Shown in pieces: positions 3,924 to 9,114 of a DNA stretch of 64,000 nucleotides. Origin of the DNA: Sinomonas notoginsengisoli (GTDB lineage: Bacteria; Actinomycetota; Actinomycetes; Actinomycetales; Micrococcaceae); assembly GCF_021554725.1 (NCBI RefSeq), contig NZ_JAIZDP010000007.1:1-64000 (forward strand). The letters run 5' to 3'. A program made the translations under genes and the position numbers. The notes under the pieces were generated by a model. It did not search any database and was not told the DNA's origin. It was given only the letters and a program-made list of their open reading frames with translations. Numbering within the stretch: the first letter of the stretch is position 1; the number at the start of each line of letters is the position of its first letter.

Positions 3924-4078
3924 GGCAGCGGCACCCCCCTTCCCCCATGCCCCCCAAAGGGGCTCCCCATTGGCGCGGATGCGGCGCCAGGCTCACCCTA
4001 GTTTCAGCGGGCGCGGAGGCCAAACCAGGCGGTGATCTTACGCTGGGAGTCTGATCGCCAGACTGCTTCCACCACTGA

Positions 4079-4105
4079 GACTCACAAGACTCACAAGACT
4101 CACAA
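4079..4105. repeat. Three tandem copies of a 9-bp unit
   Basis: GACTCACAA is repeated three times without mismatch in the non-coding gap between the Excalibur gene and the ABM gene. It is AT-richer than its neighbours. No function is apparent. Confidence 0.8.
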
Positions 4106-4130
4106 GCCCCCCTTACCTCGCACACAAGGC

Positions 4131-4170
4131 GGGCGGACGACGCCGGGCCCGCACCCGCCGTCGTCCGCCC
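4131..4170 (-). terminator. Terminator of the amidohydrolase-adh-ABM operon
   Basis: Perfect 12-bp stem, GGGCGGACGACG (4131-4142) and CGTCGTCCGCCC (4159-4170), 24 bp downstream of the stop codon of the last operon gene (4194). Confidence 0.7.
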
Positions 4171-4193
4171 ACCACTCGCGGTAGCGCGCCTGC

Positions 4194-4511
4194 CTACTTG
4201 ACCGCGAGCTCCCCCAATTCGGACCAGCCGTCCACCTTCACATTGATGATGTCCGGCGTCCTGGAGAGGTACGCGGGCAGCTCCTCGGTGGCCTTCTTGA
4301 AGTGCGCCGACTTCACGTGCTCGCCACCGGCCTCGTCGTCGCGGAACGCCTCGAGGAGCACGTAGGTGTTCGGGTCCGCGAGCGAACGGGACCATTCGAA
4401 GAAGAGGCAGCCGTCCTCGGCGTTGGTGGCCTCGGTGAAGCCGCGGGAGATCTCGGGCCAGGCGTCGGCGTGCTCAGGCTTGACGGGGAATTTCGCGCTG
4501 ATGTAGATCAA
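4194..4511 (-). CDS. Antibiotic biosynthesis monooxygenase (ABM) domain protein
   Basis: 105 residues, one ABM-fold (dimeric alpha-beta barrel) domain like the YgiN quinol monooxygenase group. Conserved features include the opening strand 'MIYISAKFPVKPE', 'FFEWSRSLADP' and 'HVKSAHFKKATEELP'. These small cofactor-free enzymes often oxidise or scavenge quinols or similar reactive aromatics. The start is a TTG at 4511: an ideal AGGAGG lies 6 bases upstream and no ATG fits as well. It is the last gene of the operon, 19 bp after the alcohol dehydrogenase, so it is probably cotranscribed with it. Its substrate is unknown. Confidence 0.8.
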   Translation of the reverse strand: MIYISAKFPVKPEHADAWPEISRGFTEATNAEDGCLFFEWSRSLADPNTYVLLEAFRDDEAGGEHVKSAHFKKATEELPAYLSRTPDIINVKVDGWSELGELAVK

Positions 4512-4530
4512 GGTCTTCCTCCTGGAAGGA

Positions 4531-5565
4531 CTACGGGACGAGGATGGCGCGGCCGCGGACCTTGCCGGCGTCGAGGTCGGAGATGGCCTGCTGGAAGTCC
4601 GCGAGGGCGTACTTCTGGGTGTGCAGGGTCACGGCGCCGCGGGCGGCCAAGGCCATGAGGTCCTGCAGGTCGTTGTAGGAGCCCACGAGGTTGCCGATGA
4701 TGTTGATCTCGGTGGAGATGATGTCGATCGTGGGAACATCGATATTCTCTCCATAGCCGACCACGTAGTAGTCCCCCGCCTGGCGCAGCATCCGCACGCC
4801 CTCGGAGGTTGCCCCGCCCTCGCCCACGAAGTCGATCAGGGCCTCGGCCCCGTGCCCGCCGGTGAGCTCGAGCACCCGCTCCACCTGGGACCCGTCCGCG
4901 AGCACGCCCTCGTCCGCGCCGATCGACGTCGCCAGCGCGAGCGCGTCCGGGTTCCGGTCCACCACCACGATCCGGGCCGGGGTCAGCGCCTTGAGGACCT
5001 GGATCCCGATGTGCCCCAGGCCACCGGCGCCGATCACCACGCACGTGTCCCGCGGGGTCAGCCGCTTCGCCGCCTTCGCCGCGGCGTGGTAGGCGGTCAG
5101 CCCCGCATCGGCCAGGGCCGCCACGTCCGCCGGCTCCAGCGCGTCGTCGATCTTCACCACCGACCGGGCCGAGGTGAGCAAGTACTCCGCGTACCCGCCG
5201 TTGGTGTCGATGCCGGGGAACCGGCTGTTCTCGCAGTGCACGTCGTCCCCCGAGCGGCAGGCCCGGCACAGCCCGCACGTGATGAGCGGGTGCAGGATCA
5301 CCTTGTCCCCGGGCTTGACATTGCTCACCGCACTGCCGACCTCATCCACCCACCCGGCATTCTCGTGCCCGATCGTGTATGGCAGGTGCACCTGGGACTT
5401 CTCCGCCCACTGGCCCTCCAGGATGTGCAGGTCCGTCCGGCACACCCCGGCACCGCCGATCCGCACGACGACGTCCCACGGCCCCGTCGCCTCCGGCCTG
5501 GGCACCTCGGCCATCTTCAGATCATCGTGGTACCCCACGACCTGCACAGCACGCATCGAATTCAT
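4531..5565 (-). CDS. adh: Zinc-dependent NAD(P)+ alcohol dehydrogenase
   Basis: 344 residues, medium-chain dehydrogenase. Catalytic zinc ligands are visible in 'GVCRTDLHI' and 'GHENAG', and the four-cysteine structural zinc site in 'CGLCRACRSGDDVHC'. The Rossmann motif is 'VVIGAGGLGHIG'. It resembles the alcohol dehydrogenases found beside propane monooxygenases, which oxidise short-chain alcohols to aldehydes or ketones. It starts one base after the DUF59 gene ends, a tight operon junction. A second ATG three codons in (5556) is an alternative start. The enzyme class is secure; the alcohol is inferred from context. Confidence 0.9.
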   Translation of the reverse strand: MNSMRAVQVVGYHDDLKMAEVPRPEATGPWDVVVRIGGAGVCRTDLHILEGQWAEKSQVHLPYTIGHENAGWVDEVGSAVSNVKPGDKVILHPLITCGLCRACRSGDDVHCENSRFPGIDTNGGYAEYLLTSARSVVKIDDALEPADVAALADAGLTAYHAAAKAAKRLTPRDTCVVIGAGGLGHIGIQVLKALTPARIVVVDRNPDALALATSIGADEGVLADGSQVERVLELTGGHGAEALIDFVGEGGATSEGVRMLRQAGDYYVVGYGENIDVPTIDIISTEINIIGNLVGSYNDLQDLMALAARGAVTLHTQKYALADFQQAISDLDAGKVRGRAILVP

Positions 5566-5566
5566 C

Positions 5567-6391
5567 TCAGCTCTCCTTGACGTGAATGGGAAGTAGGTGA
5601 TGGTAGTCCGCCGGCTCGGCGCCGTCAGCCCTTCCAGCCTGGTCGCTGCCGGATCCCTCGTACCGGGTGCGCAGCAGGCCCCGGCAGAAGTGTGCGTTGC
5701 CGTCGATCGAGATCCTCGTGGACCGTGCCCGGCGCAGCGCGAGCGGCACCTCCTCGGGGGCGTACCCGCGCCCCGCGTGATCCACGAGCACGACGGCGTC
5801 CGACCGGTTGGGCAGGCCCAGCGCCTCGCGCCGGCGTAGCAGGGCGTCCTTGTCGCTGCCGACGCGCAGGTCCGCGAGGGTCACGGTGCCAACGGCGCCC
5901 TCGGGCAGGGAAGCATCTGCGCGGAGGAGGTCCGTGAGGCAGCGCTCCGCAGCGGCGGTGTGCGCCTTGCGGCGGAAGACGAGCCGGAGCTCCTCGAGGT
6001 CCTGCTCGGCCTCGTGCTTGAACGTGCCCTTGTACCCCGCGTCAGCGGCGAGACCCGCGTTGATCAGGTCCGAATCGTGGTGGTCGTCGAGCTCGACGAC
6101 CACGGTGCGCATTCCGGCGATGGCCGAGACCGCGTCTTTCGCGTCCGAGGCCATGAGGTAGGCGAAGTTCGGCGAGCAGAACGAGGTGGGCAGCCGCAGG
6201 TGCACGATCGCCGCCCACGCTGGGGACGCGCCGTCGTGCGTCCGGCGGACCTCGACCGAGCGGACGAATCCCAGGCCGGTGATCGGCTCGTCGAGCTCGG
6301 GATCGACCACGGTGGCGAGGGCGTCGAGGACCTCTCCCCTCAGGACGGTCTCGGCGGCCTCGCTCGCTCTTGTCGCCGCGACGACCGTCAT
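5567..6391 (-). CDS. DUF59/MIP18-type iron-sulfur assembly protein, long form
   Basis: 274 residues. Residues about 19-110 form a DUF59 domain with the typical 'VVDPELDEPITGLGFV' start and the Cys loop 'TSFCSPNFAYLMASDA'. The C-terminal half has 'SDAVVLVDHAGRGYAPEEV' and ends with 'HFCRGLLRTRY', a pattern of the longer proteins found in propane/methyl-ketone monooxygenase operons. DUF59 proteins help mature metal centres, so the inferred job is loading or repair of a metallo-oxygenase. It overlaps the amidohydrolase stop by ATGA and ends one base before adh, which implies translational coupling on both sides. Confidence 0.8.
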   Translation of the reverse strand: MTVVAATRASEAAETVLRGEVLDALATVVDPELDEPITGLGFVRSVEVRRTHDGASPAWAAIVHLRLPTSFCSPNFAYLMASDAKDAVSAIAGMRTVVVELDDHHDSDLINAGLAADAGYKGTFKHEAEQDLEELRLVFRRKAHTAAAERCLTDLLRADASLPEGAVGTVTLADLRVGSDKDALLRRREALGLPNRSDAVVLVDHAGRGYAPEEVPLALRRARSTRISIDGNAHFCRGLLRTRYEGSGSDQAGRADGAEPADYHHLLPIHVKES

Positions 6392-7434
6392 TGCGCCGCG
6401 CCCAGATCCGCCATGCCCGGCTGCCGCGGGCCGGTGGCGGTCTCGTCTGCCTCGGGGACCTGGAGCTCCTCGGGCACCGGGATCCCGTACATCTTCGCCG
6501 CGTTCAGGCCGAGGATCTTCTTCTTCTGGGCCACGCTCAGCTGCGCATACTCGGTCATGTCCTCCGGGATCTGGAAGTCCACGAACTGCTCGACGAGCCA
6601 CCGCGGAGTCCAGAGGGCGTAGTCGCTCGAGAAAAAGATGCGGTCCTCGCCGAGCCAGTAGACGAGCTCGCCGATGATCTGCGCGAAGTACCGCGGACGG
6701 GTGTGCATGAACGGCATGGCCACCGCCAGGCCGCCGTAGACGTTGGGCTCCTGGGTGGCGATCCAGCAGAAGTCCTCGAGGCGCGGCAGGCCCACGTGCT
6801 CGACGATGAAGTTCAGGTCCGTGAAGTCGGAGGCCGCGTGGTCCACGTCGGCCACGTCGAAGGCGTCCCGGTCTAGCGGCCGGATCGTGGGGCCCTTGTG
6901 GACGTGGATGTTCGTCACCCCGAGCTTCTGGCACTCCTCGAAGTACCGGTACGTCTCGGGGTCCGAGAGCTTGTACCCTCGCGAGTCCCCGTGCCACTCG
7001 GCGGTGTAGAGCTTGACGCCTGTGAACTTCATCTTCTCGTGGTCCGCGCGGAGCCGGTCCAGGCCGTTCTCCCCGTTGCGGGGGTCGAAGCAGTGGTTGT
7101 ACGTGAGCTTGTCCGGGTGGGCGGACGCGAGCCCGAACGCCTCCTCCGTCTGGCCGAAGCCCCGCTTGTAGAACTCCCCCAGGTACGCGGGCTGGAAGAT
7201 CGCGTGGTCCACGTAGCCGTCCTCGAAGAGGTCCTTCATGAGCCGCTCGCCGCCCTGGTAGAGGTACTCCTCGTACGTCCAGAGCTCGGATTCCGGCGAG
7301 AGGTTGCGGTGGTAGTCGTAGAAGCAGTCGATGAACTGCTTGCCGTGAATGTTGCGCTGGTTCTCGGGCCGCGCGTCCCAGAGGGCGATGTGCGCGTCGA
7401 CGATGAAGTAGTTCTCGCCATCCTTGGTGTACAT
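6388..7434 (-). CDS. Amidohydrolase-family metal-dependent hydrolase (prm/mim operon type)
   Basis: 348 residues of the amidohydrolase_2 TIM-barrel type. Metal ligands are suggested by 'FIVDAHIALWD', 'NIHVHKGP', 'FIVEHVGLP' and 'FFSSDYALWTP'. The sequence matches the amidohydrolase conserved downstream of actinobacterial propane and methyl-ketone di-iron monooxygenase genes; its exact reaction there is unsettled. The ATG at 7434 has AAGGAG upstream, and the open frame beyond it is not family-like. First gene of a four-gene operon facing a GAF-Fis regulator; the 180-bp gap carries the shared control region. No monooxygenase subunit gene precedes it, which is odd. Confidence 0.85.
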   Translation of the reverse strand: MYTKDGENYFIVDAHIALWDARPENQRNIHGKQFIDCFYDYHRNLSPESELWTYEEYLYQGGERLMKDLFEDGYVDHAIFQPAYLGEFYKRGFGQTEEAFGLASAHPDKLTYNHCFDPRNGENGLDRLRADHEKMKFTGVKLYTAEWHGDSRGYKLSDPETYRYFEECQKLGVTNIHVHKGPTIRPLDRDAFDVADVDHAASDFTDLNFIVEHVGLPRLEDFCWIATQEPNVYGGLAVAMPFMHTRPRYFAQIIGELVYWLGEDRIFFSSDYALWTPRWLVEQFVDFQIPEDMTEYAQLSVAQKKKILGLNAAKMYGIPVPEELQVPEADETATGPRQPGMADLGAAQ

Positions 7435-7452
7435 GCCGTGGTCTCCTTCGCT

Positions 7453-7532
7453 GCGACTGCCGTAGTCGCGGTGAGACCACCGTAGGGACGACGGCGGCCG
7501 CTGGCACCACGCACGGTGTCTCACTTTGAGAC
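7453..7532. promoter_or_regulatory. Divergent control region with two inverted repeats
   Basis: GTCTCA-CTT-TGAGAC (7518-7532) is a perfect 6-bp inverted repeat located centrally between the operon and the activator gene. It is a good candidate binding site for the Fis-type HTH of the divergent regulator. A second repeat, GCGACT-GCCGT-AGTCGC (7453-7469), lies in the operon's likely leader. No clear sigma-70 promoter was identified by eye. Confidence 0.45.
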
Positions 7533-7614
7533 GCGCATCACACATTCCTGAGGCGTCACGCTATCCTCGAGGGAGTGCCAGGATTCGGGGTCCAGGGCGA
7601 GGAGGTCGGCGCCG

Positions 7615-9114
7615 ATGCCGGAGGACAACCTGCGGCCGGCCGTCGCGGCCCCGCACGGAGCGATCGTTCCTGCATCCCGGCGGCTCTTGGCCTCGTGGCA
7701 GCGCAGCGAGCGGTACGGCGTCTCCCCCGAGTCGATCGATCCGGTCTGGACCGGCGAGGTGGCCACGGACTCCCTGTTCTTCGAATGCGGCCGCGAGGTG
7801 CTCACCGACCTGCACACCACCTTGGCCGACGAGCCGGTCAGCCTCATGCTCACCGACGCGGAGGGGCTGGTCCTGAACCGCTTCAGCTCCAACCCGGTCC
7901 TCCTGCATGCGCTCGACGCCGTGCACCTCGCCCCGGGCTTCGCGTTCTCTGAGCGCGAGGCCGGCACCACGGGCCTGGGCCTGGCACTCGCCGACCGCGT
8001 TCCCAGCCTCGTGCGGGCTGCGGAGCACTACAACGCGAGCCTGTGCACGTACACGTGCGCCGCGGTTCCGGTCCTCGACCCGCTCTCGGGCCGGCTCGAG
8101 GGAAGCGTCAACATCACCACCTGGTCGCAGCAGTCGCACGCGCTCCTCCTGGCCCTCGCGCAGTCCGCCGCCAGCAGCACCGCCGCCCTCATGCTCGCGC
8201 GGTCGCATGGACGCACGCCCCGGCCCCAGCCCCAGGGCGGAGTATTCAGGATCCAGGGCAGCCGGATGGAACAGGGGCAGGAGACCCTCCAGGCCATGTC
8301 CCCTGCCTGGAGGGCTGCGGAGGCCGCCGCGGAGAGCGCCCTAGCCTCCGGCCACGCCGTCGCCGCCCTCGGCGAGCGCGGCTCGGGCCGGGCCACCCTG
8401 CTCGCCCAGGCCCTGCGCCGGGCACGTCCCCGCACCCGGGTCCTCACCGTCGATGTCCCCGCGCCGACTGATGTTCCGGCGTGGCTCGGCCTCTGGGTGC
8501 CGGAGATGACCAAAACCGGCACCGCCGTCATCATCGAGAACGCGGGAACGCTGCCGGCATGGGCCGTGCACGAGGTGCATGAGGCCATCGCCGCGGGGGC
8601 CACGTCGTCGCCCGCACACTGGGCTGTCACCGCGGAGCGGCTCGACGACATCCCGGCACCCATCGCGGCGCTGGTCGGCACCATGGTCGATTTGCCCCCG
8701 CTGCGCGAGCGCCCTGGGGACATCATGCCCATCGCCCGCCATGCCGCGCGCGAGGCTCGGCTGCGCGACGTCGCCTTCACCCCCGCCGCCGAGCACGCGC
8801 TCACCGCGTACGAGTGGCCGGGGAACGCGGACGAGCTCGTCCACGCCACGCGCGCCGCGGCCTCGCGCGCCGAGACGATCGACCTGCAGCACCTGCCCCC
8901 TGGCGTGCTCAGCCGACCGCCCGCGCGCCTCACGCGTCTCGAGGCCCTCGAACGGGACGAGATCGTCCGCAGCCTCTCCCGCCCCGGCACCACCGTTGCG
9001 CAAGCCGCCGCCGAGATCGGCATCAGCCGCGCCACCATCTACCGGCGCATGGCCCGGCTCGGCATCACCATGCCGAACGCCCCCAGCCCGCGCGACTCCG
9101 GGGCCCAAGAATAG
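7615..9114 (+). CDS. GAF-Fis transcriptional activator (AcoR/MimR type), sigma-54 motifs lost
   Basis: 499 residues. An N-terminal helix region ('LASWQRSERYGVSPE') leads into a GAF-like sensor (about 65-190, with 'AGTTGLGLALAD' and 'CTYTCAAVPVLDPLSGRLEG'). A degenerate AAA+ domain follows: a P-loop relic 'GERGSGRAT' but no GAFTGA loop. The C-terminal Fis HTH reads 'VAQAAAEIGISRATIYRRM'. Actinobacteria lack sigma-54, so this class must activate by another route. Related regulators control mim/prm monooxygenase operons and acetoin genes. The ATG at 7615 follows GAGGAGG with good spacing. Divergent from the amidohydrolase operon, its likely target. Confidence 0.85.
   Translation: MPEDNLRPAVAAPHGAIVPASRRLLASWQRSERYGVSPESIDPVWTGEVATDSLFFECGREVLTDLHTTLADEPVSLMLTDAEGLVLNRFSSNPVLLHALDAVHLAPGFAFSEREAGTTGLGLALADRVPSLVRAAEHYNASLCTYTCAAVPVLDPLSGRLEGSVNITTWSQQSHALLLALAQSAASSTAALMLARSHGRTPRPQPQGGVFRIQGSRMEQGQETLQAMSPAWRAAEAAAESALASGHAVAALGERGSGRATLLAQALRRARPRTRVLTVDVPAPTDVPAWLGLWVPEMTKTGTAVIIENAGTLPAWAVHEVHEAIAAGATSSPAHWAVTAERLDDIPAPIAALVGTMVDLPPLRERPGDIMPIARHAAREARLRDVAFTPAAEHALTAYEWPGNADELVHATRAAASRAETIDLQHLPPGVLSRPPARLTRLEALERDEIVRSLSRPGTTVAQAAAEIGISRATIYRRMARLGITMPNAPSPRDSGAQE

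Follow-up and report, generated by a model that had tools for sequence, protein, structure and literature searches.

What do the accessory genes of a propane-type monooxygenase operon do where the monooxygenase itself is missing? The question is raised by a 64,000-nt stretch of DNA from Sinomonas notoginsengisoli (contig NZ_JAIZDP010000007.1 of a 3.59-Mb genome that is 99.97% complete; hereafter the window), in which the genes for an amidohydrolase (AH), a DUF59 protein, a medium-chain zinc alcohol dehydrogenase (ADH), and an ABM-domain protein form a single tight operon, with a GAF–Fis regulator encoded divergently. The first-pass annotation of this DNA described the unit as the accessory tail, without the monooxygenase, of an operon of the prm/mim type, which encodes group 5 soluble di-iron monooxygenases. 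Our comparisons speak against an odd, truncated tail: it is highly probable that the unit is an operon in its own right, conserved across the Actinomycetota, and not a broken prm/mim operon. The unit varies a gene set that is already known and does not amount to a new kind of system; what seems to be new is that the palindrome between the regulator and AH genes is common to prmA-type genes and that AH carries two fixed differences. Searches of open-access papers gave no description of a monooxygenase-free operon. All five genes lie where the annotation had put them:

4128–4173, minus strand: hairpin of 15 pairs without a U-run, 3′ of ABM, the last gene (z-score −4.33, equaled by 0 of 200 shuffles)
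4194–4511, minus strand: ABM-domain protein, 105 aa, TTG start (PF03992, 6.4e-19); an optional member
4531–5565, minus strand: medium-chain zinc ADH, 344 aa (PF08240/PF00107)
5567–6391, minus strand: DUF59 protein, 274 aa (PF01883, 3.3e-10, above the family cut-off)
6388–7434, minus strand: AH, 348 aa (PF04909, 3e-49)
7518–7532, no strand assigned: palindrome GTCTCA-N3-TGAGAC, putative operator, 84–98 bases upstream of the AH start
7615–9114, plus strand: regulator with GAF, AAA-lid, and Fis-type helix-turn-helix regions, 499 aa, divergent from AH

The AH and DUF59 genes overlap by 4 bases, DUF59 and ADH are separated by 1 base, and ADH and ABM by 19 bases. The hairpin is the likely end of operon transcription; a scan of 4000–7800 found no U-tailed terminator. 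Just 3′ of the hairpin, at 4078–4106, lie three direct repeats of ~9 bases each, of the GACTCACAA type.

As the annotation had stated for the locus, the monooxygenase is absent, and the genome search that it proposed extends this result. A family search with PF02332 (di-iron monooxygenase) gave no match in the operon or in the whole 3.59-Mb genome; because the identical search detects PF02332 in 36 of the 394 genomes of our class sample, the search itself works. None of 14 control genomes contains a PF02332 match. Monooxygenase and MimG-type GroEL proteins likewise have no tblastn match across the whole window (E up to 1e-5), so that the reported lack of GroEL holds as well. The window starts at base 1 of its contig, C30, whose edge lies 4.2 kb beyond ABM. 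This edge is unlikely to matter for the absence of the monooxygenase, because the regulator directly adjoins AH and four relatives from the same family are arranged alike; in these, ~6.5 kb on each side of the genes holds no monooxygenase match, and their genomes lack PF02332. A misassembled contig hiding mimABCD was rejected in view of other hosts with the same arrangement, including the single-contig genome G031 (G and L numbers are our labels for genomes and loci).

The recurrence of a regulator opposite AH–DUF59–ADH is far too frequent for chance. In the family sample of 100 genomes, a close AH (86–100% identity) is present in five, including the window genome, and PF02332 is absent from all five; the four relatives all show the regulator and AH–DUF59–ADH, with ABM alongside only in the one from the same genus. 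An alignment search of named genomes, of which the best 80 loci (78–92% identity) were kept, places the unit in Arthrobacter, Pseudarthrobacter, Tersicoccus, Nocardioides, Geodermatophilus, Modestobacter, Kribbella, Amycolatopsis, Mycolicibacterium, Rhodococcus, Streptomyces, and others. Counting among these best 80 only loci with enough flanking DNA (for the monooxygenase, at least 5 kb on both sides), DUF59 adjoins AH in 77/77, ADH is present in 76/77 (exception, L162), and the divergent regulator in 75/78 (exceptions, L118, L154, and L159). A monooxygenase lies nearby in 3/68 (L118, L153, and L154), and 3′ of ADH a MimG-type GroEL is found in 2/73 (L127 and L154) and a same-strand ABM in 30/73. 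The class sample, which is less biased toward the window type than the best 80, contains 32 genomes with AH at E up to 1e-40; 16 of these have the Ala17 type of AH described below, and 12 of the 16 have no PF02332 match, the four with one being G186, G276, G323, and G462. The neighborhood comparison that the annotation had suggested therefore finds AH–DUF59–ADH without the monooxygenase to be widespread, in line with its guess of an independent pathway. The appended ABM gene, which it had singled out, fares differently. ABM is variable among the relatives, occurs within ~10 kb in 16 of 26 monooxygenase-linked loci, and is listed, together with a Fis regulator, among the conserved prm-flanking genes in PMC4428276, so it is neither a novelty nor a distinguishing feature of the unit.

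Several neighboring genes and duplications were observed among these loci. A DUF1097 membrane protein occurs in 14/73 of the best 80. An E1-like thiamine enzyme of ~850 aa is encoded after ADH in L090, L091, L092, L093, L104, L105, L114, and L148 and also in L179, and another is encoded close to the prm regulator of L163. L092 comes from Arthrobacter globiformis NBRC 12137. The module is present three times in the genome of Arthrobacter liuii (L084, L085, and L086), and one of its AHs is identical to that of Pseudarthrobacter oxydans L087, which suggests a recent transfer.

The kinship with prm/mim that the annotation had proposed is clear: prm/mim operons contain homologous AH, DUF59, and ADH genes in the same order, often an ABM gene, a Fis regulator, and the same palindrome upstream of their first gene. 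The window unit differs in lacking the monooxygenase, in having its promoter region directly before AH, and in a regulator of another lineage, and units of its type usually lack GroEL next to ADH. Searched as TGTCTCA-N3-TGAGAC on both strands with up to one mismatch, the palindrome at 7518–7532 is the sole site in the genome. It is also the one such match in the window, and 13 of 100 window shuffles gave at least one, so its weight comes from conservation. Within 260 bases upstream of AH, the palindrome is exact in 70 of 91 Ala17 rows (window included), has one mismatch in 15 and two in 4, and was not found in the remaining two, L154 and L159; it occurs in 0 of 13 His17/Gly17 rows. Letter shuffles of these upstream stretches yielded none under two mismatches in 2,120. 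In 7 of the 10 loci with a prmA-type match, the palindrome lies 240–350 bases upstream of that match (one with a single mismatch); for L118 and L170, the sequence analyzed does not reach upstream of the prmA-type gene. The sole palindrome of L168 precedes its stand-alone AH, not its prmA-type match; in this locus, that match is confined to the last 58 residues of the subunit, so the monooxygenase set of L168 may be broken. Among 25 further loci, the palindrome upstream of the prmA-type gene is exact in 12, and the other 13 have fewer than 240 bases of upstream sequence. L154 has two palindromes, 17 bases apart, before its monooxygenase operon. A conserved, Fis-site-like palindrome over the prmA −35 box is described in PMC4428276, and its likeness to 7518–7532 is by description only. 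The letters of the operator had no match in the open-access literature.

The window regulator belongs to a lineage distinct from that of the prm-side regulators, and BLAST between the two aligned only 159–338 residues. Its putative Fis recognition helix, SRATIYR, has the same letters in 4 of 7 regulators from monooxygenase loci; a single residue sets apart the helices of L154 and L169, and that of L166, a regulator that does not adjoin its monooxygenase, differs by more. The GAFTGA motif of σ54 activators is absent from the window regulator and from all others aligned, and the best NCBIfam match of the window regulator, DhaR, is far below the cut-off. The natural reading of these sequences is that the window and prm-side regulators would bind the same DNA target in response to different signals.

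The AH sequences split into a monooxygenase-free type, with Ala17/Ala83 as in the window, and monooxygenase-linked prm/mim sequences with His17/Thr83. To define fixed differences, we compared 102 monooxygenase-free with 33 monooxygenase-linked operons, which are not independent samples (3 of the 102 rows are probably repeats of named records), and required a residue at ≥90% on one side and ≤10% on the other, where another residue is at ≥90%; L154, L174, L175, L176, L180, L182, and L230, in which the pairing is broken or which are too distant, were left out. The only fixed differences in the AH–DUF59–ADH core are AH His17→Ala, the second His of the HxH motif, and Thr83→Ala. Ala17 is found in 102/102 monooxygenase-free operons, and position 58 is near-fixed on one side (Leu in 99/101); DUF59 (100 vs. 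32 rows) and ADH (98 vs. 32 rows) show zero fixed differences between the operon types. In the family of G379, where 44 of 201 genomes have AH, 39 further loci were compared: 25 are monooxygenase-linked with His17/Thr83, L230 is monooxygenase-linked with Ala17/Val83, and 13/13 loci without a monooxygenase in 10 kb have Ala17/Ala83.

A tree with columns 17 and 83 masked requires three changes of the 17/83 state and four of monooxygenase linkage. In the free quick tree, the smallest clade with all Ala17/Ala83 rows also contains 25 monooxygenase-linked rows; when Ala17/Ala83 was constrained to one clade (104 rows), the log-likelihood was 58.69 higher than that of the free quick tree (p-AU 0.904). 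A single clade is thus compatible with the data, and the changes to Ala17 and Ala83 may have arisen once. The annotation had also considered whether these proteins group away from the prm/mim types, and here the answer is divided: AH stands apart from sampled prm/mim-linked AHs and yet adjoins some of them.

Several loci with unusual arrangements touch on this split. L154 (2601–13261, Nocardia alni) is an operon of regulator, monooxygenase, AH, DUF59, ADH, and GroEL genes whose AH is of the Ala17/Ala83 type and is likely a replacement of the original one. In L153 and L168, a stand-alone module lies next to a monooxygenase-type one, and each of the two has an AH of its own type. In L174, L175, L176, and L182, the order is ADH–AH, with DUF59 after AH where visible and without a regulator of the window type, and in L175 FdhD adjoins this set. 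L172, in G323, resembles a prm operon in its monooxygenase, GroEL, regulator, and ABM genes but has no AH, DUF59, or ADH match in 20 kb; the sole AH of that genome at E up to 1e-40 is a stand-alone Ala17 type on a different contig. L180 (1453–10649; G282, a 1.3-Mb genome) encodes a distant AH (40%, Gly17) directly after a Ugp-like ABC transporter with two ATPases, for which a substrate was sought and none assigned, and, 5′ of this AH, an ADH of 56% identity that lacks the Cys cluster for structural zinc.

The predicted fold places AH in the decarboxylase/hydratase branch, and a decarboxylase, hydratase, or tautomerase activity is putative. With E up to 0.001 as the threshold, Foldseek matched 72 PDB chains, and most of the 50 listed belong to this branch; the TIM-barrel matches among these 50 include 5-carboxyvanillate and gamma-resorcylate decarboxylases, LigJ, and ACMSD (E 6e-11 to 2e-6), at 11–17% identity, and by sequence AH has no PDB match at 1e-5. 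His15, His177, His179, His213, and Asp271 are identical in all rows of the AH alignment. Assigned by motif, not by measured geometry, His15 and position 17 correspond to the first two metal ligands and His177 and Asp271 to the remaining two; in the window AH, His15, His177, and Asp271 are present, positions 17 and 83 are Ala, and the second His of the HxH/ExH motif is therefore absent. In the model, His15 lies within strand 12–16 and residues 81–85 immediately follow strand 77–80 (DSSP), an arrangement in which residues 17 and 83 may touch.

This loss has precedent. Four-ligand sites are described for gamma-RSD, IDCase, and ACMSD (PMC7894528, PMC8187880, PMC11650718), with His9, His11, His177, and Asp294 as the zinc ligands of ACMSD (PMC11650718) and Glu8, His10, His164, and Asp287 as the ligands of gamma-resorcylate decarboxylase (PMC7894528, PMC8187880). 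The same two papers describe LigW and 2,3-DHBD as active with three protein ligands (Glu, His, and Asp), Mn- or Mg-dependent in the cases cited, whereas zinc is the metal listed for SAD and the Fusarium 2,3-DHBD, each likewise with three ligands. LigW and 2,3-DHBD resemble the window AH in the three-ligand arrangement, as their second His is no ligand. However, the three-ligand enzymes in a table passage of PMC7894528 all have Glu as the first ligand, whereas the window AH has His, as in ACMSD and IDCase, where the second His is retained. Because the loss of His17 has this precedent in active enzymes, a more open site is predicted rather than a dead protein; that AH is an active three-ligand metalloenzyme is, by analogy, somewhat more probable than its opposite, and the idea of a pseudoenzyme is lowered accordingly.

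The ADH retains Cys42, His67, and Asp153 and Cys97/100/103/111, the residues of the catalytic and structural zinc sites in this family. Its closest solved structure is the Aeropyrum pernix ADH 1h2b (5e-94); the Rhodococcus ruber secondary ADH-A (2xaa/3jv7), also a medium-chain zinc ADH, gives a full-length match (5e-57), but the window ADH is nearer to 1h2b and to the prm-linked ADHs. Identity to the prm-linked ADHs compared is 71–80% for most and 61–66% for L153, L168, L169, and L170. The prm ADH of Gordonia TY-5 is reportedly, by the title of a 2003 paper by Kotani, an NAD+-dependent secondary ADH. Together with the zinc residues, the nearest structures, and the identity to prm-linked ADHs, the proteome levels in A. 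chiangmaiensis (presumably Actinomycetospora chiangmaiensis) favor an alcohol/ketone pathway that is entered at the alcohol, not the alkane, level. The Gordonia enzyme is described as needed for propane metabolism (PMC6849523), and in A. chiangmaiensis on 2-HIBA the mim-linked ADH makes up 6.1% of the proteome and the AH-like protein 3.2% (PMC7176365). The DUF59 protein consists of an N-terminal DUF59 domain and a helical C-terminal domain (model mean pLDDT 91.5). Cys72, Cys236, Asp102, Asp103, His104, and Asp106 are invariant in its 51 rows; for the helical domain, 0 folds matched at E up to 0.001, and the best hit was to the DUF59 domain alone. Metal loading is a plausible but putative role of this protein. 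As far as the available text goes, AH and DUF59 of propane/acetone operons have been named as conserved, without a tested function (PMC4428276, PMC6849523, PMC7176365).

Collectively, these comparisons make it reasonably probable that the unit works as an inducible catabolic operon complete in itself, without any such monooxygenase, although it has a common origin with the accessory half of prm/mim; a substrate at the secondary-alcohol/ketone level is a tentative proposal, with slightly less than even chances. In this model, the GAF domain of the regulator would sense a small substrate, and the regulator would bind the palindrome at 7518–7532 and switch on AH–DUF59–ADH(–ABM). The ADH would most likely use NAD+ to convert a short secondary alcohol, or a hydroxyketone, to the ketone, and AH, as a divalent-metal enzyme, would then act on the ketone-level intermediate. 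The DUF59 protein would probably load the metal of, or chaperone, ADH or AH, and in the monooxygenase-free AH the four-ligand site (His15, His17, His177, and Asp271) would have been exchanged for a three-ligand one.

Three other explanations deserve consideration. The least improbable of them, still given a low probability, is that AH and DUF59 are not metabolic enzymes but assist ADH or another metalloenzyme in cofactor loading or folding, with Ala17 marking an AH freed from catalysis. DUF59 (FeS_assembly_P) proteins act in metal-cluster assembly, the DUF59 gene follows AH in 77/77 loci, and an active-site His has been replaced while conservation elsewhere in AH stays. However, related zinc ADHs are not known to require such helpers, and His15, His177, His179, His213, and Asp271 of AH are unchanged in every row of the alignment; moreover, LigW and 2,3-DHBD are active with three ligands, and the abundance of the mim-linked AH-like protein on 2-HIBA (PMC7176365) is that of an enzyme.

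Marginally less probable is a leftover or trans-acting accessory set, which either serves an oxygenase encoded elsewhere or is the decaying remnant of a lost prm operon. The common ancestry and the palindrome would fit, as would the PF02332 match in 4/16 class-sample Ala17 hosts, the modules side by side in L153 and L168, and the incomplete copy in G186. So would L127 (1077–5626, a Mycobacterium metagenome-assembled genome), in which the regulator and AH(Ala17)–DUF59–ADH are followed by a MimG-type GroEL with 85% identity to that of L154. This locus, with no monooxygenase match in its 12.1 kb, looks like an intermediate. However, PF02332 is missing from 12/16 class-sample hosts and from all five in the window family, a search that did not extend to P450, flavin, or copper oxygenases, and in many families the three genes have stayed linked to each other and to a regulator dedicated to them. 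The least likely explanation, 2,3-butanediol/acetoin-type catabolism, in which ADH makes acetoin or diacetyl that AH and a linked thiamine enzyme split, draws on a pyruvate-dehydrogenase-E1-like protein 3′ of ADH in 8/73 of the best 80 loci (far below NCBIfam cut-offs), a diacetyl/acetoin-reductase-type short-chain dehydrogenase after ADH in L089 of Arthrobacter koreensis DSM 16760, an ExaC-type acetaldehyde dehydrogenase near 5/68, and the distant DhaR match of the regulator, but these associations are a minority of loci, AcoR-like regulators control many pathways, and the E1-like protein lacks a close counterpart in the window genome (best 29%).

Several observations weigh against a self-contained catabolic operon or limit how far it can be taken. 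We infer regulator binding, the substrate, the reaction order, the metal, and the role of DUF59 from sequence comparison and predicted structures. The scan of 4000–7800 found no σ70-type promoter, and confidence in the model of AH is moderate at best (pLDDT 83.9, with residues 218–223 below 50). The best-80 search is biased toward the window type of AH, and the G186 copy (L167) has no DUF59 or ADH beside an AH that is ~20 residues short. Position 17 and monooxygenase linkage vary together in just two or three independent pairs, which gives no statistical support. L154 and L230 are monooxygenase-linked with Ala17, and L174, L175, L176, and L182 have a His17 AH with no monooxygenase match nearby; these exceptions rule out a strict rule that Ala17 means no monooxygenase.

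The value of the unit is that the accessory genes have been separated from the monooxygenase in nature. Because the same genes persist without it across many families, this natural version argues that AH and DUF59 serve alcohol/ketone steps and not monooxygenase maturation. The exchange of a single metal ligand offers a one-residue handle on the role of AH and DUF59, and a common palindrome with diverged regulators provides a clean system for what each regulator senses. It is possible, although unlikely, that AH, with ketone or hydroxyketone intermediates as its substrates, is the founder of a new branch within the amidohydrolase superfamily, that His17→Ala with Thr83→Ala retuned it when the operon left the monooxygenase, and that the unit would thus represent a widespread actinobacterial entry for alcohols and ketones that bypasses oxygen-dependent hydroxylation.

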